A DNA stretch of 64,000 bases from Herbiconiux aconitum (GTDB lineage Bacteria > Actinomycetota > Actinomycetes > Actinomycetales > Microbacteriaceae). The position numbers and the translations under genes were made by a program. Within the stretch, counting starts at the first letter, position 1, and every line of letters begins with the position of its first letter. Below the pieces are notes generated by a model. The model was not told the DNA's origin. It searched no databases and saw nothing but the letters and a program-made list of their open reading frames with translations. The stretch covers positions 2,232,001 through 2,296,000 of the forward strand of contig NZ_JANLCM010000001.1 in the NCBI RefSeq assembly GCF_024979235.1. The letters run 5' to 3'. Shown piece by piece: positions 3,531 through 17,188 of the stretch.

Positions 3531-3890
3531 ATGAAGGCGAAAGATGAATTGGGCCGGCGCGGCGAGGAGTTCGCGGCGAGCACCCTGGAGAAGTCGGGGT
3601 TCCGGCTGGTGGCGCGCAATTGGCGCTGCCCGGTGGGCGAGATCGACATCGTGGCCTACGACGGGCCGGTGCTCGTGGTCGTCGAGGTGAAGACGCGAAC
3701 ATCGGATGCGTTCGGTCATCCATTCGAGGCCATCACACCCGCGAAGCTCCGACGCCTTCACCTGCTCGCCTCGGCTTGGCTGGCCGAACACCCGGGGAGG
3801 CGACATCCGGAGTGCCGGGTCGACGTGGTGGGAATCCTGTGGCCCGGGTACGGCGAGCCGAGCATCCAGCATCTGCGGGGTGTGTCCTGA
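3531..3890 (+). CDS. yraN: YraN / UPF0102 family putative nuclease
   Basis: 119 residues. The motif run GRRGEEFAASTLEKSGF, GEIDIVAYDG and VVVEVKTR places the Glu, Asp and Glu-x-Lys residues of the restriction-endonuclease-like fold shared with Holliday junction resolvases. The cellular role is not established. A GTG at 3528 lies too near the GGAGG ribosome site, so the ATG at 3531 is chosen. The stop overlaps the comM start as TGATG. Confidence 0.9.
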   Translation: MKAKDELGRRGEEFAASTLEKSGFRLVARNWRCPVGEIDIVAYDGPVLVVVEVKTRTSDAFGHPFEAITPAKLRRLHLLASAWLAEHPGRRHPECRVDVVGILWPGYGEPSIQHLRGVS

Positions 3891-5422
3891 TGGTGGCGCG
3901 CACACTCTCGGTGGCGCTGCTCGGAATGACGGGCGCCGTGGTCGAAGTCGAAGCGCACATCGCCAACCAGATCCCGGGTTTCCAGTTGATCGGGCTGCCC
4001 GATGCGGCGCTCTCCGACGCGAAAGACCGCGTGCGCGCGGCGGCGGCGAACAACGGATGCCCATTGCCGGCCAAGAAGATCGTCGTGAACCTCTCCCCGG
4101 CCTCCTTGCCGAAACAAGGCTCCACCTACGACCTGGCCATCGCTGTCGCCGTATTGGCGGCAGAGGGCGGTATCGCGGTCGACGCGATCTCCTCCGTGGT
4201 GCACCTGGGGGAGCTGAGCCTCGATGGGCGGGTGCGGCCGATGCAGGGTCTTCTGCCCGCCATGGTCGCGGCTCGGGCAGCCGGCTTTCGGCGATTCGTC
4301 GTGCCGAGGGGCAACGAAGACGAGGCCATGCTCGTGCCCGACGTCGAGGTGATGACGGTGGCGTCGCTGCGCGAGGCGCTGATCCGCCATGGGGCCGACC
4401 TCGAACCGAACCCGGTGGAGACGATCCGGCAGATCGCGCTGTCGCCACCTGCTCCTTCCGCAGGCGACCTGGCCGACGTGGTGGGCAATCCCGATGCGGT
4501 CGAGGCGCTGGTGGTCGCGGCGGCCGGCGGCCATCACCTGATGATGCTCGGGCCGCCCGGAGCCGGCAAGACGATGCTGGCGGAGCGCCTGCCGGGTCTT
4601 CTGCCCGACCTCGACGCCGAGCAATCGCTCGTCGTCACCTCGTTGTCGTCACTCTCGGGCCGCCCGGTCAACGGTCTGCTGACGCGGCCGCCGCTCGAGA
4701 GCCCGCACCACACGTCGTCGGCAGCGGCGCTGGTGGGTGGTGGATCGAAGGTCATCCGTCCCGGTGCCGCCGCGCGGGCTGCGCACGGGATCCTCTTTCT
4801 CGACGAAGCGCCGGAGTTCCCGACCGCCGTGCTCGACGCGCTGCGTCAGCCGCTGGAGTCCGGAAGCATCACCATCCATCGCGCGGCGGCCGTCGCCCAC
4901 TTTCCTGGAAGGTTTCAGCTCGTGCTCGCTGCAAACCCGTGCCCGTGCGGTCAGTTCGGAACGTCAGACATCCCGTGCACCTGCACACCCATCATGCGCC
5001 GGCGCTACCTGTCGCGGATGTCGGGCCCTCTCCTCGACCGGGTCGACCTGCAGCTGCGGGTGAAGCGCGTCACGACCTCGGCGGTCCGGCTGATGAGCGA
5101 CGAAGGATCGCGCGTGTCCACTCGCACCGCACGGTTGCGGGTGGAACAGGCCAGGGCCGTCGCGCGGGAGCGCCTCGCCGGCACTGTTTGGAAGACGAAC
5201 GCCGAGGTGCCGGGCTCGTGGTTCCGTTCGGGGGAGCGGCGGCTCCCCATCGGTGCCACAGCCGCGATCGATCGCGCGCTCGAGCGCGGAAGCCTGACGA
5301 TGCGCGGGTACGACCGCGTGCTCCGGGTCGCGTGGACCATCGCGGATCTCGAGGGGGCATCAACGCCCACGAGCGACCACGTGGGCTGGGCTCTCTTTCT
5401 GCGGAAGTCGGTGGCGTCGTGA
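3890..5422 (+). CDS. comM: ComM-like Mg-chelatase-related AAA+ ATPase
   Basis: 510 residues. The N-terminal half (MVARTLSVALLGMTG) contains a Lon-protease-like S5/S9 fold. The Walker A motif is GPPGAGKTMLAERLPG (near residue 222), the Walker B motif is GILFLDEAPEF, and a cysteine cluster ANPCPCGQFGT...CTCTP follows. ComM is a hexameric branch-migration helicase that extends integration of transforming DNA in well-studied competent bacteria. The ATG overlaps the yraN stop and the stop overlaps the dprA GTG, making a tight recombination operon. Confidence 0.93.
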   Translation: MVARTLSVALLGMTGAVVEVEAHIANQIPGFQLIGLPDAALSDAKDRVRAAAANNGCPLPAKKIVVNLSPASLPKQGSTYDLAIAVAVLAAEGGIAVDAISSVVHLGELSLDGRVRPMQGLLPAMVAARAAGFRRFVVPRGNEDEAMLVPDVEVMTVASLREALIRHGADLEPNPVETIRQIALSPPAPSAGDLADVVGNPDAVEALVVAAAGGHHLMMLGPPGAGKTMLAERLPGLLPDLDAEQSLVVTSLSSLSGRPVNGLLTRPPLESPHHTSSAAALVGGGSKVIRPGAAARAAHGILFLDEAPEFPTAVLDALRQPLESGSITIHRAAAVAHFPGRFQLVLAANPCPCGQFGTSDIPCTCTPIMRRRYLSRMSGPLLDRVDLQLRVKRVTTSAVRLMSDEGSRVSTRTARLRVEQARAVARERLAGTVWKTNAEVPGSWFRSGERRLPIGATAAIDRALERGSLTMRGYDRVLRVAWTIADLEGASTPTSDHVGWALFLRKSVAS

Positions 5423-6285
5423 GGGTGCATCACCTGGAACGGCCGCTCGTGCGGTCGCTCGTCGAAGCGGTGAGCCGAGGGTCCGCGGATCTGCCCGGTC
5501 GCGCTGCGGCCCGTGAGGCGCCGACTCACGCCGCTTCGGAAGAGCGGGGGATCCCTGAGCTCGACGACGCAACGGTCGCGCGCATCTTCGCCACCGCCAC
5601 GTGGTCGGCGCTCGTCGAGCCCGGAGATGCCGTGGCCGGTCTCCTTGTGGGTTCGATCGGCGCCGACCGGGCGCTGTCGATGCTCATCGAAGGGCGCTCG
5701 CCGCAGGACTGGCTCGCCGCCTGCGCGGAAGTGGACTCATCGTTCGAGCTCGGTGTCGGCGACGTCGTCGCAGCCTGTGAGCGTTGGCGACCGAGACTGT
5801 CGTCGAAGCTGGTGGTCGCGGCTCTGCGATCGGCGATCCAGTGCCGAACCCGCTTCGTCACGCCGGCCGATCCCGCCTGGCCCGGGTCGCTCGAGGTGCT
5901 GGGAGAGCACGCCCCGATCGGTCTCTGGGTGCGCGGCGATGTCGCGGCACTCGATCGCCCTGGTGGTGCGATCGCGATCGTCGGGTCCCGCGACGCCACG
6001 AACTACGGCGAACATGTGGCGATGGACCTGGCCTCCGGTCTGAGTGATCGCGGTTTCGCCATCGTCTCCGGCGCCGCGTATGGAATCGACGGCATGGCGC
6101 ATCGCGCCTGCCTCGCGAGTCGCGGCACCACGATCGCGTTCCTCGCCGGTGGTGTCGACCGCTTGTACCCGGCGGCGCACCACGACCTGCTGCTGCGTGT
6201 CGCATCCTCCGGGGCGATCGTGTCCGAGCTCCCGTGCGGGTCGTCGCCCACGAAGTGGCGCTTTCTGCAGCGCAATTGCAAATAA
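5419..6285 (+). pseudogene. dprA: dprA 5' part, interrupted by the integrated element
   Basis: From the GTG at 5419 the frame encodes a DprA/Smf N-terminal helical region and most of the Rossmann domain (AIVGSRDATNYGEHVA, VSGAAYGIDGMAH, AFLAGGVDRLYPAAH, SELPCGSSPTKWRFLQRN). After LQRN, at 6276, the frame leaves dprA and stops within three codons (CK then TAA). The product is 288 residues and lacks the rest of the Rossmann domain and the C-terminal winged helix. DprA loads RecA onto incoming single-stranded DNA in transformation. The missing half is intact at 16706-17188. A truncated protein may be made, but normal function is unlikely. Confidence 0.95.
6265..6276 (+). other. attL core of the element
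   Basis: CTGCAGCGCAAT, identical to the copy at 16694-16705. It encodes LQRN of the DprA motif FLQRNRLIAA. Flanking bases differ on either side (T before and T after here; A before and C after at attR), so 12 bp is the full identity. Confidence 0.9.
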
Positions 6286-6321
6286 GTGCGTGAGAGTCGC
6301 TCGCTTGGCGAGTCGCGTAGT

Positions 6322-6337
6322 TCGAAGATATGTTCGA
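6322..6337 (+). promoter_or_regulatory. Candidate LexA (SOS) box
   Basis: TCGAAGATATGTTCGA matches the actinobacterial SOS operator TCGAAC-N4-GTTCGA except for one base (G for C at position 6). It ends 3 bp before the ATG at 6341, where bound LexA would block initiation. Confidence 0.75.
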
Positions 6338-6340
6338 ATC

Positions 6341-6649
6341 ATGGGGCAGAATCGCCGCTACGGATCGGATCTCACCGACGCCGCCGTCACCGAGGCGGTC
6401 ACGCGGCCGATGCCCATCTCGCTCTCAGAGGCGGAGCGTGGCGCCGGCGCGGTGCGCGAGGCGGAGGAGCCGCCCGAGGTCGAGGCGTGGGTGCGGTTCC
6501 CGGAGACGCCGGTGCGGGTGCGTGGCCGTGCCGTGGCGTGGACCGACCGAGCCTTCTGGGTCGAGTTCGAGATGCGCAGCGGTGCGACCCATCGGGTCTG
6601 GGTGTGGGCGTCGGCGGTGACGGGCGTGCCGACCGGGCGAAGTCAGTGA
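6341..6649 (+). CDS. Small protein directly behind an SOS box, unknown function
   Basis: 102 residues starting MGQNRRYGSDLTDAAVTEAV, continuing with MPISLSEAERGAG and a C-terminal half WVRFPETPVRVRGRAVAWTDRAFWVEFEM that looks like a small beta barrel. Composition is GC-rich. It is the first gene inside the left end. The start is chosen because the SOS box abuts it and no ribosome site is seen, consistent with a near-leaderless transcript. In the excised circle it would be divergent from the integrase. It could act in the DNA-damage response or in excision; the family is not identified. Confidence 0.7.
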   Translation: MGQNRRYGSDLTDAAVTEAVTRPMPISLSEAERGAGAVREAEEPPEVEAWVRFPETPVRVRGRAVAWTDRAFWVEFEMRSGATHRVWVWASAVTGVPTGRSQ

Positions 6650-6695
6650 GGCATGGCGTGCCGGAGTGGGCGAAGGGGCTTGGTAGGTTGGCGCC

Positions 6696-7325
6696 ATGTA
6701 CGCTGACATCGTCGCTTCTTTGGCCTTCGCGCTCGCCTTATTCTCCCTAGGGTGGCAGTTGGTCAGGGTGGCTCGGTGGGATAGGCCAGTTCTCTCGGTC
6801 TCGGGTCTCATGCGGGACACAGGCGAAATAAACGTCAGCACAGGGCGGGTGACCTCTACGGGTTGGGAACTCGAGATGATCGTCACGAACGTCGGGGATG
6901 CGTCAACCCAGATCGTCGACGCCTACTGGGAACTCGCCCAGCCTGACGGTAGCGAGCTGCGCGTGCGCCGCTCGGACGCGCCGGGCGGAATCATCGAGGT
7001 GGCAACCGAACCGGGATACCTCGTCCTGGACGGCGTCCGTGATCCGGCGGTGCCGTACTCGATAGGGCGAAATGGTCATGTGCAGTGGGTCTTCACTCGC
7101 GGGGTCGACACCAGCCCGGCGATCGCGCACTTTGACCGTGGACGCCCGGTCGTCGAATATGTGACACGGGTCAGGCGGCGAAAAGGAAAGAGCAGCACTG
7201 TAACGGCGGTCGGAGATTGGCAGACGCGCTCGCTGGTGCCCAGTTGGAGCGCAGCCGAGGGTCGTTCCGGCGCCGATGAACCTAGGCGAGCGTCAGTTCC
7301 CGGCGCCGATGCCTCCATCGATTAG
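6696..7325 (+). CDS. Membrane-anchored protein with beta-rich exposed domain, unknown
   Basis: 209 residues. One N-terminal hydrophobic helix (about 3-25, YADIVASLAFALALFSLGW) is followed by a soluble domain with many beta-prone stretches (WELEMIVTNVGDASTQIVDAYWEL) and a basic run RRRKGKSS near residue 163. No catalytic motif is seen. GC content drops compared with the flanking chromosome. The last 33 bp overlap the convergent 47-codon gene at 7293-7436. It could be a cell-surface or exclusion-type factor, but nothing specific supports that. Confidence 0.55.
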   Translation: MYADIVASLAFALALFSLGWQLVRVARWDRPVLSVSGLMRDTGEINVSTGRVTSTGWELEMIVTNVGDASTQIVDAYWELAQPDGSELRVRRSDAPGGIIEVATEPGYLVLDGVRDPAVPYSIGRNGHVQWVFTRGVDTSPAIAHFDRGRPVVEYVTRVRRRKGKSSTVTAVGDWQTRSLVPSWSAAEGRSGADEPRRASVPGADASID

Positions 7326-7436
7326 CAGTCTGTGCGCGGCGACTGTGTCGACGAGGCGTGCAAACTCGACCTCGTCGATGGCGTCGCCCACCACGGCATA
7401 AAGGTCGCTGGCGATGGACTGCAATACGTCACTCAT
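7293..7436 (-). CDS. 47-residue acidic protein, divergent from the RHH gene
   Basis: MSDVLQSIASDLYAVVGDAIDEVEF followed by ARLVDTVAAHRLLIDGG, 47 residues. The peptide is predicted helical and acidic. A GGGGG run lies 7 nt upstream of the ATG. It shares the intergenic region holding the 28-bp palindrome with the ribbon-helix-helix gene at 7507. A small partner of a toxin-antitoxin-like or regulatory pair is possible; no homology is claimed. Confidence 0.5.
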   Translation of the reverse strand: MSDVLQSIASDLYAVVGDAIDEVEFARLVDTVAAHRLLIDGGIGAGN

Positions 7437-7463
7437 TCTTGCCCCCTGGTAGTTGAGGAAACT

Positions 7464-7491
7464 GTAACACGGAAACTAGTTTTCGTGTTAC
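7464..7491. promoter_or_regulatory. 28-bp near-perfect palindromic operator
   Basis: GTAACACGGAAACT at 7464-7477 is followed by its inverted copy at 7478-7491 with one mismatched pair. It lies centrally between the divergent starts at 7436 and 7507, the usual position of a self-regulating repressor operator. Confidence 0.75.
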
Positions 7492-7506
7492 GGATATACT
7501 GAGGCT

Positions 7507-7764
7507 GTGAAGCACGCAGGAGGGCGCCCCAAGTCTGTCGACCCGACGTTGACGCGAACGCGAAGTGTGCGCTTCACGCCCGAGGAGGATGCTCTCGTCG
7601 AGGCTGCCGCAGATCGCGACGAGATGGCGCCGTCGACCTGGATACGCGAGCAGGCGCTCACCGCTGCCCGTCTGGGTGCCCAAACGCAGAAAAGCCCGGC
7701 GCGTCCTCTCGACACCGAGTTTGGCCACGGCGCCGCGGAAAACAGACAATCCTGTCACAGCTGA
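7507..7764 (+). CDS. Ribbon-helix-helix (Arc/MetJ-type) DNA-binding protein
   Basis: 85 residues. GRPKSVDPTLTRTRSVRFTP gives the N-terminal strand and EEDALVEAAADRDEMAPSTW plus IREQALTAA the two helices of a ribbon-helix-helix fold, as in antitoxins, MobC-type relaxosome proteins and small repressors. The C-terminal 30 residues are polar and may be disordered. The palindrome immediately upstream is its probable operator. No toxin or relaxase gene adjoins it, so a repressor role on the element is the simplest reading. Confidence 0.7.
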   Translation: MKHAGGRPKSVDPTLTRTRSVRFTPEEDALVEAAADRDEMAPSTWIREQALTAARLGAQTQKSPARPLDTEFGHGAAENRQSCHS

Positions 7765-7999
7765 GTCACACAGATTTGCATTGACTCACGGCGTGTCGCG
7801 ACCCAGAGGCCCCAGTTGACTGGGAGGCTGATTGCAGGAACACAGAAAGCCCGAAGTGCGGGCTCTCGCCGTGACTCGGGCTTCCTGATGAATCGCTTTA
7901 GACGGAGATTCACCATCAGGATAGGCCGCGCGTGCGCAAGATGCGAATGACACGCGGGGCCGTACGGGGAAGCGGCGGGACGTTCCGAGGAGAACAAGA
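7765..7999 (+). terminator. Intergenic region with two consecutive hairpins
   Basis: No gene is seen in these 235 bp. AAGCCCGA (7847-7854) pairs with TCGGGCTT (7876-7883). A second stem, CCTGATGAATC from 7884, pairs with sequence ending ATCAGG at about 7921. They probably end the RHH gene transcript; a small structured RNA is also possible. Confidence 0.45.
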
Positions 8000-8272
8000 A
8001 TGACCGCTGTACTGCTCACTTACGACCTCAAGACACCGGGTCAGAAGTACGAGAAGCTCTACGAGAAGCTGAAGTCGATGGGCGCGTGGGCGCATGTGAT
8101 GGACTCCACCTGGATCATCACCGGGGCGTCGATCACGTCGCAAACGGTGTTCGATGCTGCACGGGAGATCGTCGACGACAACGATCTCGTGCTCGCGACG
8201 GACTTCGACCTTCGCGGCATGAAGGGTTGGCTTCGGGAGCAGACCTGGACGTGGGTCCGCGACGTGGCGTAA
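8000..8272 (+). CDS. Orphan Cas2/SinR-like ferredoxin-fold protein
   Basis: 90 residues. MTAVLLTYDLKTPGQKYEKL opens with the hydrophobic strand ending in YDL typical of Cas2-related and SinR-family proteins; MDSTWIITG and DNDLVLATDFD follow the expected strand order. Cas2 relatives include CRISPR adaptation subunits and VapD-type RNases. No Cas1 gene or CRISPR array is in the window, so a stand-alone function is implied. The aspartate in YDL is the likely metal-binding residue if the fold is right. GAGGAG lies just before the ATG. Confidence 0.6.
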   Translation: MTAVLLTYDLKTPGQKYEKLYEKLKSMGAWAHVMDSTWIITGASITSQTVFDAAREIVDDNDLVLATDFDLRGMKGWLREQTWTWVRDVA

Positions 8273-8286
8273 AGCCAAGCACGAAG

Positions 8287-8330
8287 AGCCCCCGCTCGAC
8301 GACCCGTGAGGGTTGCCGGCGGGGGCTGTT
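8287..8330. terminator. Bidirectional terminator, first of two related copies
   Basis: AGCCCCCGC (8287-8295) pairs with GCGGGGGCT (8319-8327). It lies between the convergent genes ending at 8272 and 8367. The loop and one arm recur at 10219-10258. Confidence 0.7.
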
Positions 8331-8366
8331 CCTTCAGAAGCCTCGGAGTGAACGCGCGTAGGCTGC

Positions 8367-9302
8367 TCAGTACTCGGTGGGTGGTAGGAGCTCGAGTCCG
8401 TCCACCTGGAACAGCGGCACCGTGGTGTTGCCGCCGATCTGGGTGTCGTAGGAGTAGCTACCCATGACCGTCACGTACATCTTGACGATATCGCCCTGCA
8501 CCGTGGCGTCGAGGAGCGGGCAGCTTGTCTCGCTGTCGCCTGCATAGATCAGCGTGTTCTGGTCGTACTCGTAGGAGTACTCCTTCTGCGTACCGGAGGT
8601 GCTGGCTCGGAACTGGCACGGGCCGGTCGCGGAGTCGAACTGGATGATCTCACCGTACGAGACGATCTTGTCTCCGACATGGTCGTCAGGTGTCTTCACC
8701 AGCAGCGCATAGTCGCGGTCAGCAGCCTCGAGGTACTGGGCCGGATCAAACGGTGCGGCGACTGGTTCCGGAATCGGCTCCGGAGTTGGTGTCGGTGTCG
8801 GTGTCGGTGTCGACGTTGGCTCTGGTGCCTCCGTTGGCGTCGGTGCCGGTTCGGCGGGAGCCGTTTGCGACGTCTCGGATGTGACTGCTGCGTTGATGGC
8901 CCCCGCGCCAATGACCCCGTACACGATTGTCATGACGATTGCGACGATGAACGCTGCGCCGCCAAGAATGGAGCCGATGGCGGCCCGCTGACGGCCGGGT
9001 GTCTTGCGCATCAGGGCGACGCCGCCCAAGATCGCTGCGAGCAGCCCTAGGACGATAGCTAGGCCGGTGACCCCAGGAATGAATGCGAACACGGCGCCGA
9101 TGATGCCGAGCACGAGAGCTGCCGTGGCGAGGCCCTGGCCGGGAGCCTTGACAGGCGGCGCTGCCGGAACATAGGGCGGCGGTGCGGTAAGGACGGGTCT
9201 GCGGGTGTCGGTCCACTGGGTGCCATCCCAGTAGCGTTCGTTTCCGGGCTGGTCGGTGTCTGGGTACCAACCTGCGGGCGGTGGCGGTGCTGCGTGACTC
9301 AT
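8367..9302 (-). CDS. DUF2510 / DUF4190-type membrane protein
   Basis: 311 residues. The N-terminal DUF2510 signature is AGWYPDTDQPGNERYWDGTQ with WTD after it. Two or three hydrophobic helices (about 50-125, ALVLGIIGAVFAFIPG onward) with DUF4190-like spacing follow. A Pro/Thr/Glu-rich linker comes next, then an exterior domain with paired cysteines (GPCQFRAS, SETSCPLLD). The start at 9302 (MSHAAPPPP) is preferred over the upstream one because GGGGGAAG lies directly before it. Probable envelope protein; function unknown. Confidence 0.7.
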   Translation of the reverse strand: MSHAAPPPPAGWYPDTDQPGNERYWDGTQWTDTRRPVLTAPPPYVPAAPPVKAPGQGLATAALVLGIIGAVFAFIPGVTGLAIVLGLLAAILGGVALMRKTPGRQRAAIGSILGGAAFIVAIVMTIVYGVIGAGAINAAVTSETSQTAPAEPAPTPTEAPEPTSTPTPTPTPTPEPIPEPVAAPFDPAQYLEAADRDYALLVKTPDDHVGDKIVSYGEIIQFDSATGPCQFRASTSGTQKEYSYEYDQNTLIYAGDSETSCPLLDATVQGDIVKMYVTVMGSYSYDTQIGGNTTVPLFQVDGLELLPPTEY

Positions 9303-9431
9303 GGTGCTTCCCCCTGTTGCTGTGAGAAGGATCACGCTAGCGGACTCCATGCATTTGCATTGGCCCCCAAATGGGGTCCTCTCGACATTTGTCGATCCCG
9401 CTAGGCTTCAGGCACAGCACCGGGGGTCACC

Positions 9432-9542
9432 ATGATCAGCAACTTCGACGACAGCCATTGCGGAAGAGAAGCGCCCTCGGTCGCAGGCGCAACCCAGATG
9501 CGTTCTCGTATCACCCTTATCGCGGAATGGATTCGGTGCTGA
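9432..9542 (+). CDS. Possible 36-codon peptide
   Basis: The 290-bp gap between 9303 and 9592 contains one short frame, MISNFDDSHCGREAPSVAGA and onward to TGA at 9542, with GGGGGTCACC before the ATG and a TAGGCT hexamer about 30 bp upstream. No homology is recognised; it may be spurious. Nothing else is seen in the gap. Confidence 0.3.
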   Translation: MISNFDDSHCGREAPSVAGATQMRSRITLIAEWIRC

Positions 9543-9592
9543 CTATTGACTAGAGGACTGCTCGGCTCAGGATTACCGCGGAGGACTACCAA

Positions 9593-9925
9593 ATGGTGAC
9601 GCTCAAGAAGTACGAACCCGCCTACTGGATCGACAAACTGCTCGATGCGTTGCAGAACCCGGCCCAACGATTCCTCGCCTTCGGGGGCGCTGCATTGGTT
9701 GTGATCGGGGGCGTGATTGCGGCTGTTGCGAACAACGCCGCTCAAGACGCAAGAAACGCTAACGACCTGCTAACGATGCTCGGTGGGCTCGAGTACCTGG
9801 ATTTCGATGCAGGCTCAGAGTTTCAAGGGTGGATCATATTTGGAATCGCGCTAGCGGTCCTCGGCGTAGTCATGATCGTCGCCCTGATCGTCGTTAAGGC
9901 CGGTCAGAAATCACAGCAGGCTTGA
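9593..9925 (+). CDS. Small two-helix membrane protein, unknown
   Basis: 110 residues. A charged amphipathic N-terminus (VTLKKYEPAYWIDKLLDAL) precedes a first membrane helix at about 28-48 (FLAFGGAALVVIGGVIAAV). A hydrophilic segment and a second helix at about 81-101 (IIFGIALAVLGVVMIVALIV) follow. The base composition is less GC-rich than the chromosome. A GCGGAGGA ribosome site precedes it. Two-helix proteins on satellites can act in superinfection exclusion or abortive infection, but nothing here proves that. Confidence 0.55.
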   Translation: MVTLKKYEPAYWIDKLLDALQNPAQRFLAFGGAALVVIGGVIAAVANNAAQDARNANDLLTMLGGLEYLDFDAGSEFQGWIIFGIALAVLGVVMIVALIVVKAGQKSQQA

Positions 9926-9964
9926 TCAGCATCATGGAATAAGCAACGGCGTACGATCGGCGGC

Positions 9965-10180
9965 ATGTTCTTCCTGGCTCGCGGCATCGAAGACGATCAC
10001 TACTGGGTCGTTCAGGAGATCGACGGCGCCCTCATCGAGACTCCGTGGCGGGTCGAGCACGAGGCCGATGGATACCGACTCAGCCACGCCGACGACAGTG
10101 ACCAGACCGAATTCGGCTACTCGTTGGGCGCGTTCATGACTGCCGAGGACGCCGTGACGAGACTGCGCGAGATCCTCTAG
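9965..10180 (+). CDS. 71-residue acidic protein, unknown
   Basis: MFFLARGIEDDHYWVVQEID begins a compact acidic protein with alternating hydrophobic residues, ending FMTAEDAVTRLREIL, a likely C-terminal helix. No motif is recognised. It is the last rightward gene of the element's left half and is followed by a bidirectional terminator at 10219. The start may be leaderless. Confidence 0.5.
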   Translation: MFFLARGIEDDHYWVVQEIDGALIETPWRVEHEADGYRLSHADDSDQTEFGYSLGAFMTAEDAVTRLREIL

Positions 10181-10218
10181 ACCGATGGCCGGGACGTGGC
10201 GCCGGTCCAAACGCGAAA

Positions 10219-10258
10219 AGCCCCCGCTCGACGACCCGTGAGGGTTGCCAGCGAGGGC
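10219..10258. terminator. Bidirectional terminator, second related copy
   Basis: GCCCCCGCT pairs with AGCGAGGGC (one mismatch), and TTTT follows on the minus strand. It separates the rightward gene ending at 10180 from the leftward cluster ending at 10383. The sequence CGACGACCCGTGAGGGTTGC is shared with 8287-8330. The remaining sequence up to 10382 holds no gene I can support. Confidence 0.65.
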
Positions 10259-10382
10259 GGGGAAGTCGCAAGTCGGGGGGTTCTCCAGTGCTGACGACGC
10301 GCCGTTGACAAATCACAGGCGGATTGTTCAGCGCCTTTCAGTAACGTTGCGAGGGTCTGGGACACGGAGCGGCTTGAGGAGC

Positions 10383-10676
10383 TCAGACGGGCGCTCCGCG
10401 GAAGGGGGCGGGATCGTCGTGCGCGCGCTGCGCGGTGCGGGCGGCAAGCGCGCCAGTGAGGTTGAAGATGGCCATGTCACGCGGCCGTGTCTGACGGGCG
10501 TACGCCTGGGCATCGAGCACAACAGGATGCAGGGCGACGGCGTCCACAGCTGCACGGAGCGCGCCGACCTCGGCGACGCGCGCCGGGTCGAGTGGCAGGG
10601 GCGGCAGCGCCGCGACGGGGTGCCGGCCGTTGGCGTCGACCTGGGGCGCCGGTGTGCGGGGCCTGCGGGTCGCCAT
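10383..10676 (-). CDS. 97-residue protein downstream of the small terminase gene
   Basis: The protein starts MATRRPRTPAPQVDANGRHP, rich in Pro, Ala and Arg, and has a helical middle section (ARVAEVGALRAAVDAVALHP). It begins 2 nt after the stop of the terminase gene, so it belongs to the same transcript and probably the same module. No family is recognised. It is the last gene of the leftward cluster. Confidence 0.55.
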   Translation of the reverse strand: MATRRPRTPAPQVDANGRHPVAALPPLPLDPARVAEVGALRAAVDAVALHPVVLDAQAYARQTRPRDMAIFNLTGALAARTAQRAHDDPAPFRGAPV

Positions 10677-10678
10677 GG

Positions 10679-11014
10679 TCAGACCTTCCGGGAGTAGCTG
10701 CCCCGGGCGGCGCCGCGACGCTGCGGGCGGACGTCGTCTTCGTCCGGGATGCGGAGCGAGGCGAGGAGTCGCGCGAGCGTGAGCTGCTGGTTACGGGCTT
10801 CGACGACGGCGGGGTGTGCCTTCACGCCCTGGGGCGATGTGACAGTGACCCCTTCGGCGCGGATGATGACGTCCAGCGCGTCGAGTCGGTCTTTGATGCG
10901 GCACGCCTCGGTGAGTAGGGAGGTCTCGTGGACGTCGAAGTCGACGAGCTCGGTGAGGGCGGTCCAGAGCGCGGAGCCGGAGTCTCCGAGGTCAAGCGAT
11001 TCAGGGGTCGTCAT
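10679..11014 (-). CDS. Phage small terminase subunit, P27 type
   Basis: 111 residues. The pattern ALWTALTELVDFDVHETSLL, TEACRIKDRLDALDVIIRAEG, VTSPQGVKAHPAVVEARNQQ and LTLARLLASLRIPDED matches the C-terminal helical region of P27-type small terminases of actinophages, ending in a basic tail QRRGAARGSYSRK. Small terminases recognise the packaging site and hand DNA to the large subunit. No large subunit is present in the element, so this protein would need a helper phage's motor. The N-terminal DNA-binding region is short compared with the family. Confidence 0.78.
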   Translation of the reverse strand: MTTPESLDLGDSGSALWTALTELVDFDVHETSLLTEACRIKDRLDALDVIIRAEGVTVTSPQGVKAHPAVVEARNQQLTLARLLASLRIPDEDDVRPQRRGAARGSYSRKV

Positions 11015-11158
11015 AATTTGAGGGCCTTTCGATTGCGTGCGGAGTCGCCTCCGGCGAGATAGGTCGATTCGGTTTAGGCCCCGCTCTGCCAGCGCCTATA
11101 TGCCGAAACGGCGATGCGTCGTTACCCCTTAGAGACCCTCCCCAGGTCCGAGGATCAC
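11015..11158. other. Noncoding gap between HNH and small terminase genes, possible cos/pac region
   Basis: 144 bp without a convincing gene. It contains GTCGCCTCCGGCGA and several short inverted repeats. In many actinophages with HNH and small terminase genes side by side, the cohesive-end site is here; assigning that role is inference from position only. Confidence 0.35.
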
Positions 11159-11458
11159 TCAGATCGCTCCGGGGTGAGGCTCGGGGTCACGTGCGCGACG
11201 AAGCCGGGGCCGCTGTGCGGCATGGCCTTCGGCGGAGGACTTGCGGGCGTGGTGCCATCGGCATAGAGACTGGAGGTTGCCGAGACTGTGGTCGTCGCCG
11301 TGCTCGATGTGGTCGACCTGGTTGGCGCGCTCGGTGCACTGGTTCTCCTGTGAGTCACGAGCCTGGCAGCGGTAGCCGTCGCGTCCTAGGACGACCAGGC
11401 GCCGACGCTGCCAGTCGGGAGGGAGTCGGTCGCGTCGGGTCGAGGTCTCCCATCCCAT
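11159..11458 (-). CDS. HNH endonuclease of phage packaging type
   Basis: 99 residues starting MGWETSTRRDRLPPDWQRRR. The nuclease core is VLGRDGYRCQ, then NQVDHIEHGDDHSLGNLQSL and CRWHHARKS, with the expected His, Asn and His positions. In long-tailed phages, HNH proteins next to terminase genes assist cleavage at cos. The ATG overlaps the preceding stop as TGATG, so it is coupled to the zinc-finger gene upstream. Confidence 0.85.
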   Translation of the reverse strand: MGWETSTRRDRLPPDWQRRRLVVLGRDGYRCQARDSQENQCTERANQVDHIEHGDDHSLGNLQSLCRWHHARKSSAEGHAAQRPRLRRARDPEPHPGAI

Positions 11459-11865
11459 CAGCGCTTGGCCTTTGCCGGGCAGTGCGGGGCGCAGTAGGTG
11501 ACGGTGGGGCGGCCAGAGCGGGCGGGCAGCATCCGCCCGCACCCGCCGGAGCAGGGGGAGTAATAGCGCCCGGGGACGAACTGAGTCTCGGGTGCAGCCG
11601 CTGGCCGCCGCAGTGGTGCGGGGCTGGCGGGGGCTGTGACCTTGGCGGGCTTGCGGTGGGCGGCCGCCGCCTCGAGCTGCTCTTTGACGCGGAGCTCCAG
11701 GTGCGCGACACGTTCGGCGACAGGCAGGCTCATCCACGCGGCCACGTTGTGGGGCTCGCTCAGTCCGTAGGGCACGAGGTGTGCGTCGCTGTCGGTGAAG
11801 CGCAGGAGGCGCGTCATGCGGCGGGTGTAGCTCTCGGCGAGCAGGGCGGGTGCTGGGTTAGGCAT
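11458..11865 (-). CDS. Protein with C-terminal zinc-finger-like cysteines, unknown
   Basis: 135 residues. The N-terminal part is helical (LLAESYTRRMTRLLRFTDSD). The end carries CSGGCGRMLPARSGRPTVTY then CAPHC, a CxxxC...CxxC arrangement likely to bind zinc. The ATG at 11865 is preferred over a GTG 27 nt upstream because AGAGAG lies 9 nt before it. It is coupled to the HNH gene. A DNA-binding role in the packaging or regulation module is plausible. Confidence 0.6.
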   Translation of the reverse strand: MPNPAPALLAESYTRRMTRLLRFTDSDAHLVPYGLSEPHNVAAWMSLPVAERVAHLELRVKEQLEAAAAHRKPAKVTAPASPAPLRRPAAAPETQFVPGRYYSPCSGGCGRMLPARSGRPTVTYCAPHCPAKAKR

Positions 11866-11925
11866 GGGTGTTCGCTCTCTGGGTATCGGCACGCTGGGCG
11901 GGGAGGAGGTGGGTTGTGGCTATGG

Positions 11926-12234
11926 CTACTCGCCGTTCCAGCTCGCGAGGGCGCGATCAACGCGGCGGCGCGTGACGATCAGGGCACGGACAGCGGATTC
12001 GAGGAGGACCTCACCGGCGACCACCTGGGCGCGCAGAGCGAGGCGGCGCGGGTCTGCGACCGTGTCGCCGACGGGATCACCATGCCCACCACGGGAGCGC
12101 TCGGAGGTGTCCTCGCGTGGCTTCGGGGTCAGCGCCGGTTGAAACTGCGCCTCCGAGGCTTCGTGCAACGTGCGTGCGAGCAGGAGCGCCTCCTCGGCGA
12201 GGGTGCGGACCAAGGCGGGCAGGGGCTCTGGCAT
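11926..12234 (-). CDS. 102-residue helical phage-type protein, unknown
   Basis: MPEPLPALVRTLAEEALLLA starts an alpha-helical protein with a polar middle (PREDTSERSRGGHGDPVGDT) and a second helical block ADPRRLALRAQVVAGEVLLE. The ribosome site AGGAG is 5 nt before the ATG. Short helical proteins like this are common near packaging genes of actinophages, but no function is assigned. The 178 bp upstream to 12413 hold no supported gene. Confidence 0.55.
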   Translation of the reverse strand: MPEPLPALVRTLAEEALLLARTLHEASEAQFQPALTPKPREDTSERSRGGHGDPVGDTVADPRRLALRAQVVAGEVLLESAVRALIVTRRRVDRALASWNGE

Positions 12235-12412
12235 GGGTCTCCTAGGTGGCGCCGCCGGTGCGGGTGGCGCGTCGTGGGGTGGTCCCGCTGACCGGGCGCG
12301 GAAAGGGACACGTCCGGACAGCGGGGGTGCGCGGGGCTCGCAGGCTCGAGCCGCCGCGCGTGCGGGGCGAGGATGCCGGACGACAGTGGCCGGGCATCTG
12401 CGGGGCCCGCGG

Positions 12413-12550
12413 TTAGTCCCGCTCGAGGTCCCTGAAATCCAGGAGCGGGAAGTAGTCGGCGAGACCGTCGGGGTTGTCGCCGATGGGGACGTAGACGGTC
12501 TCGTTGATGATGATCGGCTTGGCGTTGGCCGGTGGTTGCGGGTCGGTCAT
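12413..12550 (-). CDS. 45-residue protein, unknown
   Basis: MTDPQPPANAKPIIINETVY continues to PIGDNPDGLADYFPLLDFRD and ends at TAA (12413). The start overlaps the stop of the 73-residue gene upstream (ATGA), which supports real translation. No motif is visible. Confidence 0.5.
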   Translation of the reverse strand: MTDPQPPANAKPIIINETVYVPIGDNPDGLADYFPLLDFRDLERD

Positions 12551-12768
12551 CGGCGGCGGGCCTCTCGTGCGATGGCAGCGGCGTCGAACGGGTCGAGCGA
12601 CTCGGCGACGGCCGCCGCGTAGACGGCTTCCGCGGTCGTGCCGTCGCGCTCGGCTCGGCGCTGGGCAGTGAGCTGAGTCTGCTCGTCGGTGTCAGCGAGG
12701 CGCGCGGGCTGCGGGTGCCGGAGGATGACCTCGGCGGCGATGGCTCGGATTTCTTCGGCGGACATCAT
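12547..12768 (-). CDS. 73-residue charged helical protein, unknown
   Basis: MMSAEEIRAIAAEVILRHPQ opens a highly charged, Ala-rich helical protein (LTAQRRAERDGTTAEAVYAA, DPFDAAAIAREARRR). Both ends overlap neighbouring genes by 4 bp, so the three genes 13439-12413 are translationally coupled. No family is recognised. Confidence 0.5.
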   Translation of the reverse strand: MMSAEEIRAIAAEVILRHPQPARLADTDEQTQLTAQRRAERDGTTAEAVYAAAVAESLDPFDAAAIAREARRR

Positions 12769-13439
12769 TTGAAGCCCATGACCCTGCGCTCAGAGGCGTT
12801 GAGGCTTTCGAACTCTTGCGGGGCTGGGCGCAGCGCTACGGCGGTGCCATCTCGAACCTCGCCCACCGCATCGACCGGGAAACCGAACACGAAGGCGTTC
12901 AGCACCTCGAAGGCGTACCGCTTACCGCCGTCCGCGTTGTCGCCCTTCGCGCCGAGCGCTGCTCGCTCGGTCCAGGGCACTCCCGGGGCGCCGGCGGCGC
13001 GGTAGGCCTCGTCGCGAGCGTCCGCAGCTTCGACGAGCTGCGCCCAGGCGGCTTCGACCCTGGCGTGCTGCTCGAGCGCGAACGTCGAGGCGACCTTCTG
13101 AACGTTGCCGACGTCGGTGCTGGTGACCTTCGCGTCGAAGGCTCGCAGCTTCGCGAGCGACGTGCGGGTCGCCTCGTTCAGCCGGTCGATGGTGTCCTGG
13201 TGCGCACGTTCGGCCTTCTCGAGATCCACCGCGAGCGGGTTGGTCGCTCGGAAGGCAGCGAGAGCGACGGTCGAGACGCGACGATCGCGGCGCGCTTGGA
13301 CGCCAGCAGCGTTGGCGGCCTGCCACGAGCGCTGCGCGGCCGGTGCGCCGGGCACGGCGGCGACGAGCCACGCTGGCGGCCGTTCGTGGCTGAAGAGATA
13401 CTCCGCTACTCCGTCGTGGGATTGAAACTTCGTGGTCAT
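12765..13439 (-). CDS. 224-residue protein with coiled-coil centre, unknown
   Basis: MTTKFQSHDGVAEYLFSHER starts a basic N-terminus, followed by a long helical heptad-like centre (about 70-150, LEKAERAHQDTIDRLNEATR ... LEQHARVEAAWAQLVEAADA) and a compact end (YAFEVLNAFVFGFPVDAVGE). No enzyme motif is seen. The shape would suit a scaffold, a capsid-size or packaging modifier, or a structural adaptor, but this is only a suggestion. Confidence 0.55.
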   Translation of the reverse strand: MTTKFQSHDGVAEYLFSHERPPAWLVAAVPGAPAAQRSWQAANAAGVQARRDRRVSTVALAAFRATNPLAVDLEKAERAHQDTIDRLNEATRTSLAKLRAFDAKVTSTDVGNVQKVASTFALEQHARVEAAWAQLVEAADARDEAYRAAGAPGVPWTERAALGAKGDNADGGKRYAFEVLNAFVFGFPVDAVGEVRDGTAVALRPAPQEFESLNASERRVMGFK

Positions 13440-13456
13440 AGGGTGTCCTTTCGTGG

Positions 13457-13678
13457 TCAGCCGAGCAGTGTGCGCTCGGCCTCTTGGATGGTGTCGACGA
13501 CGGCGTCGGTGTCGCCGGCGTGGATGGCTTCGATCTGGCGGTGCCAGAGCTCCTCGGCGGTCGCGAGGCGAAGGTCGCGGCGTGCTGCACGCGCCTTCGC
13601 CCGGCAGTTGTCGCTACAGAACCGTGCTTCGGGTCGCCGGTCGATGAGGTCGGCGCCGCATCTCTCGCAGGTGGGCAT
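13457..13678 (-). CDS. Small zinc-finger protein
   Basis: 73 residues starting MPTCERCGADLIDRRPEARF and continuing CSDNCRAKARAARRDLR: a CxxC...CxxxC zinc site followed by a basic helix, as in small phage DNA-binding or ribosome-associated fingers. The ATG at 13678 is chosen because the zinc-finger begins there and GGGAG precedes it. It follows a terminator and heads the downstream half of the cluster. Confidence 0.6.
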   Translation of the reverse strand: MPTCERCGADLIDRRPEARFCSDNCRAKARAARRDLRLATAEELWHRQIEAIHAGDTDAVVDTIQEAERTLLG

Positions 13679-13709
13679 GTGGGTACTCCCGGAATTTCGG
13701 CAGATCGGC

Positions 13710-13737
13710 AAAAAATAAGCGACCGCGCGAGGCGGTC
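13710..13737 (-). terminator. Rho-independent terminator inside the leftward cluster
   Basis: On the minus strand GACCGC (13737-13732) pairs with GCGGTC (13726-13721), followed by GCTTATTTTTTG. It separates the pair at 13775-14865 from the genes ending at 10383. Confidence 0.7.
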
Positions 13738-13774
13738 ACGGCTCTCTTCTGGGTCATAAGAGGAGAGGGCCGCC

Positions 13775-14020
13775 CTAGCGGGACAGGGCACGGATGCGCC
13801 GCCGGCGCGCTGCTTCGCAGGCCTTGCACCTGTCCTCGAGACCGTCGCGTTTGCGAACGTCGCGGCCGAACTCGGTCATTGCCAGTGCTCGTCCGCAGTT
13901 GGCGCAGTCCTTTCCCGAGTGGCGCAGCCGCCAGGCGAGTTGTCGGAGCACGCTGGCGGCGAGCTCGCCGTCGGGGTCGTAGCCGTTGGCGATCTCGACG
14001 AGTCGCTCTTCGGGCGTCAT
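13775..14020 (-). CDS. Zinc-ribbon protein, 81 residues
   Basis: MTPEERLVEIANGYDPDGEL is a helical start. CANCGRALAMTEFGRDVRKR then DGLEDRCKACEAARRRRIRA gives two CxxC knuckles and a basic tail. Similar short zinc-ribbon proteins occur beside HNH or replication genes in actinophages. The start overlaps the stop of the 14017 gene by 4 bp. Confidence 0.6.
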   Translation of the reverse strand: MTPEERLVEIANGYDPDGELAASVLRQLAWRLRHSGKDCANCGRALAMTEFGRDVRKRDGLEDRCKACEAARRRRIRALSR

Positions 14021-14865
14021 CGTGCGCGCTGGAGCCGGAGCGCGGCGACGAGTTGGCGACGCCGAAGGAGCGAGCGCACTCGCAACTCGTACGGGATCTC
14101 GAGCACGCGGCGCCGAGCGCCAACAGAGCGCACGTCCGCCAGCTCGGCGGCGATCCGATAGAACGCGTTCCGACCGATCAGGAGCGCTCCGGGATACGCG
14201 TCGAGGCCGCCTTTCGACTGCTGACGCGCGGCGTCGAACGCCTCCCAGACTTCGGGCAGCGGATGCGGTCCGTCAGGCAGCGTTGGAAGCCAGCGCGAGA
14301 GCACGACACGAGCGTCGTCTTCGGCGGACGCGCGCTCCAACGCACGTTGGATAGCGACATCCTCGCGCCGCGGAGGGCGAGCTGGAACAGTCGAGCGAAC
14401 GGGCGCCGGGATGCGTGCCTCTTCCTCGGCGGAGAGGTCCGGGATCTGGTCGCGGGCCACCTCCACAGCGCGCCGCAGCCATGACCGCGCACCGCGTTCG
14501 TCCCGCACGAGTGCCGTGCGTGTCGCGGTGATGCGGCGCTGGGCGTTGCCCTCGGCGCGAGGGGCTGCCTCGTCAAGGATGCTGATCACGACTTGCTTCG
14601 TCTCGGCGGAGAAGTCCGAGTAGCTGACGCGGCTGCACGCATCGCCAACACGGAAGGTGCGGGTCGTCTCCCAGTAGTCCTGGCGACGGTAGCCAGCATC
14701 CGCGAGAAGTGGTGCGGCGACTGCGCCGAGTGCCTGCGGTGCTACCACGTCGACGGAGCCGTCGAGCACGTCGGCCGACCTGTAGGTGCAGAGGAGTGTG
14801 AGGATTTCAGGGTTCATGGTGGCGATCCATTCGGGCGGCGATCCAGTGAGCAGAGGCGTGCCCAT
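14017..14865 (-). CDS. Largest unknown protein of the element, possible DNA-binding or replication role
   Basis: About 282 residues from the ATG at 14865 (MGTPLLTGSPPEWIATMNPE); a start at 14817 is possible, and the frame is open up to 14976. The first half has beta-rich features (GYRRQDYWETTRTFRVGDAC). The end (ALLIGRNAFYRIAAELADVR, ARRRVLEIPYELRVRSLLRR) looks like a winged-helix and basic DNA-binding tail. It lies where satellites often carry a primase-replication or regulator gene. I do not recognise the family. Confidence 0.5.
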   Translation of the reverse strand: MGTPLLTGSPPEWIATMNPEILTLLCTYRSADVLDGSVDVVAPQALGAVAAPLLADAGYRRQDYWETTRTFRVGDACSRVSYSDFSAETKQVVISILDEAAPRAEGNAQRRITATRTALVRDERGARSWLRRAVEVARDQIPDLSAEEEARIPAPVRSTVPARPPRREDVAIQRALERASAEDDARVVLSRWLPTLPDGPHPLPEVWEAFDAARQQSKGGLDAYPGALLIGRNAFYRIAAELADVRSVGARRRVLEIPYELRVRSLLRRRQLVAALRLQRAR

Positions 14866-14943
14866 CCCGTTCTCGCCGGGGCGCGCGAGCGCCGGCCTCC
14901 CGGATCGCCAGAAGAGGAGGAGCGCAGACCGAGCAGCGGTGAA

Positions 14944-15065
14944 GGTGAAACTTCGTGTGTATGTGTCGCTTCCCATCCATATCTCTTCTGTGCTTAGAGA
15001 GATGAAGCTCTAGAACACTCATTAGAGACAGCGTGGGAAGCGTCACTTACACACAGAACTTCACC
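14944..15065. repeat. Imperfect inverted repeat with ~43-bp arms
   Basis: The arm at 14944-14986 and its inverted counterpart at 15022-15065 share GGGAAGCG, TACACAC and TTCACC blocks, around 80 percent alike, with a 35-bp spacer. They lie in the 365-bp gap between the unknown gene and the integrase. The rest of the gap (15066-15230) shows no gene. Candidate binding sites or replication origin. Confidence 0.6.
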
Positions 15066-15230
15066 CGAACGGGGTCCGCTCCCGGCGTCTCGCCGGCGTG
15101 GTCATGCCAGAGGAGAGGGCCAGCGGCCCCGGGCCTGCTCAGAGAGTGGACACCAAGTTTCGCCGGCGCGATATTCGCAGCACGGCGGCGGGTGGGCGTT
15201 CGCGTAGTCAGCCTGGTCGGCAGGGTTTGC

Positions 15231-16676
15231 TCAGTCCGCCTCGGCCAGGATCACATCAGGGTTCAGGTGGGTCGCGAGGCGGTGCCAGACGCGCACCCGC
15301 CGACGCGCGTTGCGCCCATGATCGACCTGAACATCGAGCAGAGCACGGACGAGGTCTCTCTGCCGGTCTAAGTCGAGCTGGTCGAAACGAGCTAGCACCT
15401 CCGCCTCGAGGTCGGCGTAGTCGGCACCAGCCCCCGGTAGGTCGTCGATGATGTCGTGCACAGCACCGAGGAGGACGGCGCCAGCGCTCTTCGATGTGCG
15501 GGCGCGCTCGAGCTGCTCCTCCAGTGTCACGCGCTCATCGCGCAGCTCGAGCAAACGGCGACGGGCTAGCGGGGCCGGGACCAGTCCTTCGTCGCGGTCG
15601 GCGATGATCACCTCCACTGTCTCCACGTTGCGCTCGTGCGCCGCCACGAGATCGACGATTTCCCTGCCCCCCGCTGTGCGGGGGAACAATTCAGCCGAGG
15701 ACGTGATGAATGCGCGAGCGACGGCCTCTCGGACGAGGTCTTCGAGCAGATCCTTCTTGATGAAAGGGTGAGTCAGATTCGCGGTGCACAGATAGCCACG
15801 ACGGTAGGTGAGCGGCCCGCCGCAGTCCCCGCACACGGCGATCCCGCTCAGTAGATGCCGTGGAGTCGGGCCGGGGCTTGTGCGGCGCGAGGGATCGGCA
15901 AGGAGCGCTCGGACGGCCTCTGATAACGCTGGTTCGACGATGGGCTGGACGAAGGCGGACGGGAGGGTTTCGCCGCGTCGCACGATGTTGCCGGCGTAGA
16001 CGGGGCTGTCGAGGATGTATCGCACGCGCCGGGGGGTCCACGAGGCGCCGGGCGCAGGGTCGACACCCTCGGCCGTTAGCGCGCTTGCGAGCGACCGCAG
16101 CGAACCCCCGTCGGCGACATGCTCGTACATCCGGCGCACCACGATTGCCTCGGCCTCGCGAAGAGTGACGCCGTCGATCTCGTAGCCGTAGCGGCGCCGA
16201 CCGGGCGTTGGGCGCCCCGTCTCGATGCGCTGCTCGTTCGCTCGTCGTTGCCGTGCGCTTTTCCGCTCAACCTCGGAACGGGCGACGGAGGCTTTGACGC
16301 GGGCGAACAGCCGACCGTTGTCAGTTCCAAGGTCGGCTTCGCCGTTGGCTGTGAGGATCACGAGCCCACGCTCCTCCGAGCGGTCGATCCAGTCCTCGAG
16401 CTGCCGCGGTTGCCGCGTGAGCCGGTCAAGATCCCAGCACACCAGGGCGTCGAATCGACCGCGCTCGTAGTCCTCGACCATACGGTCGTACTCGGGTCGC
16501 TTCTTTCGCCGATTGCTGGCGCTCACGGTATCGCTGTACTCGCCGACCACCTCCCAGCCGCGGCTCTGCGCGATGTGTACGCAGTCGGCCCGCTGGCGCT
16601 CCACCGCCAGGCCCTCGCCGGTGGCGTCCTGAGAGATGCGAAGGTAGATAGCGGCGCGCAATCGGCTGTGGGTCAC
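15231..16676 (-). CDS. Large serine recombinase (integrase)
   Basis: 481 residues starting at a GTG. Catalytic domain: AAIYLRISQDATGEGLAVER with Ser15, then CWDLDRLTRQPRQLEDWI and ARSEVERKSARQRRANEQRI. The recombinase domain has GYEIDGVTLREAEAIVVRRM and WTPRRVRYILDSPVYAGNIV. The zinc ribbon is GIAVCGDCGGPLTYRRGYLC. A coiled coil follows at about 365-400 (LLELRDERVTLEEQLERA). The length suits the large serine integrase family, which joins attP and attB and needs a directionality factor to excise. The start lies 18 bp from the attR core. A TAATCT -10-like hexamer (minus strand, 16693-16688) touches the core. Confidence 0.95.
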   Translation of the reverse strand: MTHSRLRAAIYLRISQDATGEGLAVERQRADCVHIAQSRGWEVVGEYSDTVSASNRRKKRPEYDRMVEDYERGRFDALVCWDLDRLTRQPRQLEDWIDRSEERGLVILTANGEADLGTDNGRLFARVKASVARSEVERKSARQRRANEQRIETGRPTPGRRRYGYEIDGVTLREAEAIVVRRMYEHVADGGSLRSLASALTAEGVDPAPGASWTPRRVRYILDSPVYAGNIVRRGETLPSAFVQPIVEPALSEAVRALLADPSRRTSPGPTPRHLLSGIAVCGDCGGPLTYRRGYLCTANLTHPFIKKDLLEDLVREAVARAFITSSAELFPRTAGGREIVDLVAAHERNVETVEVIIADRDEGLVPAPLARRRLLELRDERVTLEEQLERARTSKSAGAVLLGAVHDIIDDLPGAGADYADLEAEVLARFDQLDLDRQRDLVRALLDVQVDHGRNARRRVRVWHRLATHLNPDVILAEAD

Positions 16677-16693
16677 ACGCTCATCGTAGATTA

Positions 16694-16705
16694 CTGCAGC
16701 GCAAT
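16694..16705 (+). other. attR core of the element
   Basis: CTGCAGCGCAAT, second copy of the core; it restores the LQRN codons in frame with RLIAAASHATVVVEAG of the dprA 3' part. Confidence 0.9.
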
Positions 16706-17188
16706 CGGTTGATCGCCGCAGCGAGTCACGCGACGGTCGTGGTCGAGGCGGGTCAACGGTCAGGATCGCTCAACACGGCGGGCCATGCCGCAGCATTGGG
16801 GCGTCCGCTCGGAGCAGTCCCCGGACCGGTGACGAGCGTCACTTCGGCGGGTTGTCACCGTCTCCTCCGCGAATACGACGCGGTGTGTGTGACGTCGACG
16901 GCCGACGTCGTCGAGATGGTGCTGGGGTCACCGGACGCCCGTTCGGTCGGGTCATCCTCCCCTGCAGGGGCGACAGCGACGGCCACCGGAGATTCGGCGA
17001 GTGCCCGGACGGCTTCCGGTCCGGATGCGACCAGGGTGCTGGACGCCCTGAGCGCACGATCCGCCCGCGGGGTCTCTGACCTGGCTCGGCGCACCGGAAT
17101 GGCTCCGCGGGCCGTGGCCGTGACGCTCGGAGGGCTCGCGCTCGACGGAGCAGCCTACGAGAACGAGAACGGCTGGTTAAGGCTGTGA
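16706..17188 (+). pseudogene. dprA: dprA 3' part, separated from its start by the element
   Basis: The frame reads RLIAAASHATVVVEAGQRSG and SLNTAGHAAALGRPLGAVPG, the end of the DprA Rossmann domain. It finishes with a C-terminal winged helix (RVLDALSARSARGVSDLARR, TGMAPRAVAVTLGGLALDGA). No start or ribosome site of its own is seen; the first in-frame codons come from attR. Joined at the core to 5419-6276 it gives a 446-residue protein without frameshift or stop, so the gene is interrupted rather than decayed. Confidence 0.93.

Follow-up and report, generated by a model that had tools for sequence, protein, structure and literature searches.

A leftward gene cluster at positions 10383-14865 in a 64,000-nucleotide stretch of Herbiconiux aconitum DNA (contig NZ_JANLCM010000001.1; hereafter, the window) had been predicted from its sequence to be a phage-satellite-like module with a gene for a small terminase subunit (terS) and none for the large subunit (terL). 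The cluster is present as described and belongs to a larger island, which extends beyond it, lies within dprA and occupies positions 6265-16705 (10,429 bp, ~10.4 kb). The features of the island are compiled in Table 1.

An integrase island within dprA

The two copies of a 12-bp core repeat stand exactly at the break point of dprA, which is split at ..KWRFLQRN|RLIAAAS... When the flanks were joined in silico, an open DprA frame of 436 codons from 5449 was obtained, running through ..KWRFLQRNRLIAAAS.. across the joint. The right end of the island is formed by the gene of a large serine integrase, and the reading frames of both the integrase and TerS are intact. Thus, an integrase with a specific attachment site, one of the features by which canonical phage-inducible chromosomal islands (PICIs) are recognised, is present, of the serine and not of the tyrosine type. 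The serine integrase and the size of about 10 kb had both been anticipated correctly in the original prediction.

A search of Microbacteriaceae genomes, which had been suggested together with that prediction, detected the terS family in 21 of 398 sampled genomes (22 places) and an island at the same dprA site in Agromyces allii (a locus counted in two sets, as L045 and L131). The A. allii island interrupts the same dprA codons, and its integrase and TerS share 48% and 73% identity with those of H. aconitum. It differs in its length of ~9.1 kb (9,076 bp between the repeat copies), in its other accessory genes, in a capsid-like protein (phrog_283, E 1.8e-28) and in the absence of an HNH match by our own hidden Markov models (HMMs). 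Besides L045, which lies inside dprA, the terS loci L021, L032, L033 and L066 have dprA in the same 20 kb; among these dprA-associated relatives, the island boundaries were determined for L045 only.

Packaging-start genes and a cos-like site

TerS was matched by phrog_1496 (E 1.6e-19, 71 bits) over residues 5-97 of 111. The P27 models stayed below their thresholds (PF05119, E 0.0099 and 16.7 bits against a cut-off of 24.7; TIGR01558, E 0.05 and 13.6 against 45.6), and the closest named homologue, that of A. allii, is labelled 'P27 family' in its source. Hence the predicted small terminase stands, and its assignment to the P27 type is weak. An alignment search with TerS returned no solved relative. 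The adjoining HNH nuclease was also identified as predicted; the phrog_333 scan used a 192-aa open reading frame (ORF) and not the 99-aa version that results from the likely start, the ATG at 11458. The protein shares 72% identity over 60% of the query with the HNH protein of phage Floof. The end of the HNH gene at 11159 and the start of terS at 11014 are separated by 144 bp.

Five linear phage records (Hum25, Footloose, SpecialK, Soondubu and Floof) open with terS and close with an annotated HNH gene, which in Footloose is followed by one more gene. By convention, we take such records to start and stop at the physical cos ends, so that the genes follow the order HNH-cos-terS across the joined ends. 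This order is kept in the island.

For the localization of a cos-like site, a 46-base motif was trained on the stretches upstream of terS from 56 loci without terL, with the island held out. The second TerS of L095 as well as L088, L090 and L095, whose upstream stretch was too short, were also omitted, and L096, which is one sequence with L085, was excluded from the motif and from the TerS tree. The motif log-likelihood turned out to be a poor test (control regions 295.6 versus 346.9), and therefore the register of the motif at phage ends was used in its place. Scored against 355 places per joined phage end, the motif had its best place at -11/-12 relative to the end of the record, and this in all five phages. 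Five control motifs trained at other offsets gave the phage register in 0 of 25 tests, one of which, at -39, overlaps the end. A motif with the island's clade removed and three half-set motifs recovered this register, either exactly or shifted (-2, -5, -6), in 3, 4, 4 and 5 of the five phages. Judged by these register tests and their controls, the motif is most likely a marker of cos.

In the island, the predicted site between the HNH gene and terS ranked first of 20,792 positions; a second position had an equal score to one decimal. When similarities to the junctions of relatives were summed, the gap came out above all 200 shuffles, and the A. allii junction aligned to the site without gaps, 33 of 45 bases being identical. 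An own terS and/or cos, a further feature of canonical PICIs, is accordingly present, as the TerS profile match and as a cos-like site that is modest evidence taken alone.

TerS relatives and the lack of terL

Relatives of TerS were collected from 41 named-genome loci, 17 viral-contig loci and two further sets of 14 loci each, and up to 10 kb were fetched on each side of terS. None of the 41 named-genome loci had a terL match, compared with 8 of the 17 viral loci and with 3 and 4 of 14 loci in the two further sets. Since less than 1 kb lies downstream in L057, L061, L064, L072 and L083, 36 of the 41 named-genome loci are informative, and in all 36, which span many actinobacterial families, terS occurs without terL. 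For the Microbacteriaceae, 21 of the 22 places were examined (G193 excluded), 4 of them with and 17 without terL. The terL HMM works, since it detects the gene in full prophages, and it misses some, since L034 has portal and capsid genes and no TerL match. Family terS genes also occur in metagenome-assembled genomes (MAGs) labelled as other phyla (L057, a Mucilaginibacter MAG; L076, a Dehalococcoidia MAG), possibly on misbinned contigs.

In a TerS tree of 76 rows, 16 of them with terL and limited by few alignment columns, the terL label changes five times, compared with a mean of 14.8 in shuffles, none of 500 being as low. The tree contains one broad group of 60 rows, of which 55 are without terL, and the island TerS clusters with those of L045 and L086 (support 100/99). 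The island therefore fits the actinobacterial terS grouping without terL by its clade, by the lack of a terL nearby and by the upstream cos-like site, which is clear in some loci of this kind and not in others.

For the search of whole genomes for large terminases, phrog_2 was tried as a probe and appeared unspecific. PF03354 misses the relevant TerL type, because the TerL of Hum25 matches PF20441 only, and weakly; for this reason a 15-row TerL alignment was used, which matched somewhere in 9 of 40 island-bearing genomes. A PF03354 match ~17 kb from terS in G024 means that L029 may belong to a prophage.

These data bear on the possibility that the island is an old cos prophage that decayed to its integrase end and its packaging start. 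The phage origin of the genes and the failure to find terL in the host genome would suit such a remnant; the recurrence of terS without terL in all 36 informative loci across many families, the intact TerS and integrase frames, a dN/dS of ~0.19 for a single pair (dS above 1) and the island of ~9.1 kb that A. allii has at this site speak against it, and decay is considered improbable.

Further gene content of the island

No match to terL, portal, capsid or tape-measure genes was found in the island with our own HMMs, with Pfam on 19 listed genes or with PHROGs on 13, as had been predicted for the cluster; by the same scans the island is free of phage structural and lytic genes, which is likewise a feature of canonical PICIs. 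The predicted small zinc-finger and helical proteins were also recovered: zinc-finger-style cysteine pairs were recognised by eye in 13457-13711, 13775-14020 and the end of 11458-11892, and the 224-aa protein is helical. The 84-aa protein encoded at 13457-13711 looks, by eye, like a 91-aa protein of L086. In a structure comparison of the 224-aa protein with viral models, none was below E 0.001, and scans of viral contigs with two orphan island proteins gave no homologue. The 71-aa protein encoded at 9965-10180 has copies of 66-72% identity near terS in two genomes of the same genus (L022, 3757-3969; L024, 18750-18953).

Table 1. Features of the dprA island and its flanks, with positions in the window.
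Feature	Position	Strand	Remarks
ORF with N-terminal dprA part	3706-6285	+	PF02481; interrupted by the island
Left attachment (att) copy, 12-bp core repeat	6265-6276		CTGCAGCGCAAT; inside dprA
Accessory ORF	6341-6649	+	
Accessory ORF	6696-7325	+	
NikA-like ribbon-helix-helix protein	7507-7764	+	PF21983 E 3.1e-5, below cut-off
90-aa protein	8000-8272	+	phrog_1090 E 1.3e-19; weak Cas2 match, E 4.5e-4
DUF2510 protein	8367-9350	-	
Accessory ORF	9593-9925	+	
Accessory ORF	9965-10180	+	71 aa
97-aa protein after TerS	10383-10676	-	33% identity over 84 aa to the L086 gene after TerS
Terminase small subunit TerS, 111 aa	10679-11014	-	phrog_1496
Cos-like site	11065-11110	-	Predicted cut between 11100 and 11099, CGTTTCGGCAT|ATAGGCGC
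HNH endonuclease, 99 aa from ATG at 11458	11159-11458	-	phrog_333 E 1.9e-35
144-aa protein, C-terminal cysteine pairs	11458-11892	-	No Pfam or PHROGs family
DUF7169 protein	11926-12234	-	PF23773 E 1.4e-30; phrog_21236
45-aa protein	12413-12550	-	
73-aa protein	12547-12768	-	
Helical protein, 224 aa	12765-13439	-	Three homologues apart from itself
Zinc-finger-like protein, 84 aa	13457-13711	-	Partial phrog matches, best E 3e-6
Zinc-finger-like protein, 81 aa	13775-14020	-	Partial phrog matches, best E 5.1e-8, to a portion of an endonuclease VII family
Candidate replication protein, 266 aa (longer starts possible)	14017-14817	-	Weak N-terminal D5_N-like fold
Large serine integrase, 481 aa	15231-16676	-	PF00239, PF07508; phrog_95
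Right att copy, 12-bp core repeat	16694-16705		CTGCAGCGCAAT
C-terminal dprA part	16709-17188	+	End of PF02481, DprA_WH

The profile searches that had been proposed confirmed TerS and HNH, and the structure comparison of the candidate replication protein gave weak D5_N-like rows and nothing else. Next to the integrase gene, canonical PICIs have a divergent regulatory pair (rpr/stl or alpA); none was found here, the integrase and the operon having the same direction. The ribbon-helix-helix protein could act as a regulator.

The NikA-like character of the latter protein, sub-threshold as it is, would also suit an integrative mobilisable element that is moved by conjugation and carries phage genes incidentally. 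No relaxase was seen with it, neither a relaxase nor a transfer family came up when the 19 listed genes were scanned with Pfam, and the packaging-start cassette sits in the main operon, all of which makes transfer by conjugation very unlikely.

As another explanation, TerS and HNH may be mere decoys of a chromosomal defence island that is not itself transferred and that uses them to deprive infecting phages of packaging. Staphylococcus aureus pathogenicity islands (SaPIs) do turn terS and interference proteins against their helpers (PMC10690885, PMC6092414; for these and all sources cited below, statements refer to the available parts of the text), and the protein encoded at 8000-8272 resembles Cas2. 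Apart from this weak match, a PADLOC analysis of 10 island proteins yielded three hits for 8367-9350, none better than E 0.015, and the cos-like site, the integrase and the att ends better suit a packaged mobile element. A role purely in defence has little probability compared with that of a mobile satellite.

Gene content of related loci

Among the 41 named-genome loci, our own HMMs detected a serine integrase of the island's type in 9, HNH in 4, capsid in 4 and tape-measure proteins in 4, and PHROGs added a tape-measure protein in L055. The commonest phage families near terS (best 25 of 123 families) include primases and helicases. Of 160 listed unclassified neighbour proteins, 132, some of them plainly host genes, entered the alignment scans, in which AAA_25 (15), Prim-Pol (6), DUF3987 (6) and D5_N (3) were found among the best 25 of 48 families. 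A further 10 + 1 were scanned singly; 9 of the 10 large proteins were without any family.

Lone capsid proteins are encoded in L045 and L086 (phrog_283) and in L068 (phrog_10), and lone tape-measure proteins in L024 and L055. L086 has head-tail connector genes, too. In the Streptomyces locus L055, the genes are clearly arranged as an island: one strand encodes a tyrosine integrase together with HTH_3, and the opposite strand has HTH_17, AAA_25, a cos-like site, TerS and a tape-measure protein of 1,601 aa. In the fetched stretches, tape-measure matches without a terL match occur in L021, L023, L024, L025, L028, L029, L033, L055, L059, L065, L071, L085/L096, L090, L133, L136 and L137. Capsid matches, some of them weak, occur at terS loci without terL in L026, L045/L131, L068, L076, L082, L086, L087, L088, L092 and L136. 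By means of a lone capsid or tape-measure gene, such relatives probably adjust the particles of their helpers, and it is possible that those with a tape-measure gene control tail length; the island in the window carries neither gene.

Comparison with known satellites

PICIs have been defined by several traits (PMC6092414): the attachment site, a gene order that includes the divergent repressor pair, a module for replication, and interference as well as packaging. Like SaPIs and other PICIs of the cos and terS types, the island has an integrase, a small size, no structural genes and an own terS or cos, by which helper packaging is drawn in those systems (PMC6092414). The island differs from PICIs in its serine integrase, in that no divergent repressor/AlpA pair was found, and in carrying HNH and terS together with the cos-like site in between. 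In cos-packaged staphylococcal islands the HNH protein is reportedly phage-encoded, to go by the title of a 2014 paper by Quiles-Puchalt that PMC10803314 cites. Due to the missing divergent pair and the lack of a proven replication gene, the island is not classed as a canonical PICI; by analogy, it may work like one of the cos/terS type. In the logic of a PICI that had been proposed for it, the integrase, att ends, terS and cos-like site are in place, and a divergent regulatory pair was not found.

Capsid-forming PICIs and the Streptomyces satellites Mulch and Flayer resemble the island in having terS and HNH, the latter two also in being actinobacterial; according to PMC10690885, both kinds bring their own terL, portal and capsid, none of which was found in the island by HMM search. 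The Mycobacterium PICI candidates, defined by an integrase plus a major capsid gene, are likewise actinobacterial with some phage genes, and have serine or tyrosine integrases (PMC10654092). Without a capsid match, the island would be missed by this rule.

Proposed transfer and significance

Taken together, the island is with good probability an intact, phage-mobilised, cos-packaged satellite that depends on an outside helper. This interpretation is based on an island that carries a serine integrase and has matching ends in dprA, on the HNH-cos-TerS block in the order of cos phages, on the lack of terL, portal, capsid and tape-measure matches, and on the state of terS without terL that its relatives share. 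The original proposal of a satellite is partly supported.

Several results weigh against the satellite interpretation. No repressor and no helix-turn-helix family were found among the listed genes (ORFs below 60 aa being mostly unscanned), a replication gene was not firmly identified among the scanned genes, and a helper prophage in the own genome was not found by these models, the TerL alignment search there giving no match. When the intergenic stretch was shuffled 5,000 times, the score of the cos-like site was reached in 57 cases, and the site was just eighth of 127,910 positions in the whole window. Its rank in the island fell to 11 with the clade-removed motif and to 6, 13 and 126 with the half sets, two of the three half-set motifs had their peak in the gap at a shifted position, and 15 of 200 shuffles equalled the single best junction alignment. 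Across the family the motif is unevenly represented, scoring at least 15 in 29 of 56 training regions, and among 10 further loci without terL a high score at the expected place was seen in L131 alone, which is the A. allii island again.

Judged from its sequence, the satellite most likely travels in the particles of another phage, because a packaging start signal and the starter proteins are present and the motor and the shell are not. Upon infection by a cos phage, the island would excise and replicate. Its own TerS, with HNH, would bind its own cos and recruit the large terminase of the helper, and the island DNA would then be cut and loaded into heads made by the helper.

On a wider scale, the chances are about even that a phylum-wide lineage of actinobacterial satellites exists, in which a portable block of cos and terS, sometimes with HNH, freely adds a single capsid or tape-measure gene in order to commandeer heads or to reset tail length; the island in the window would then be its most stripped form, the block alone. 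The island hints at a class of satellites recognisable by cos-terS without terL. The actinobacterial satellites described in PMC10690885 and PMC10654092 carry a capsid gene and the island does not; as coverage of this literature is thin, no claim is made that the class is unpublished. The predicted cut sites are testable, and, if the proposal is true, satellites that carry a tape-measure gene would represent a way to control the tail of the helper.

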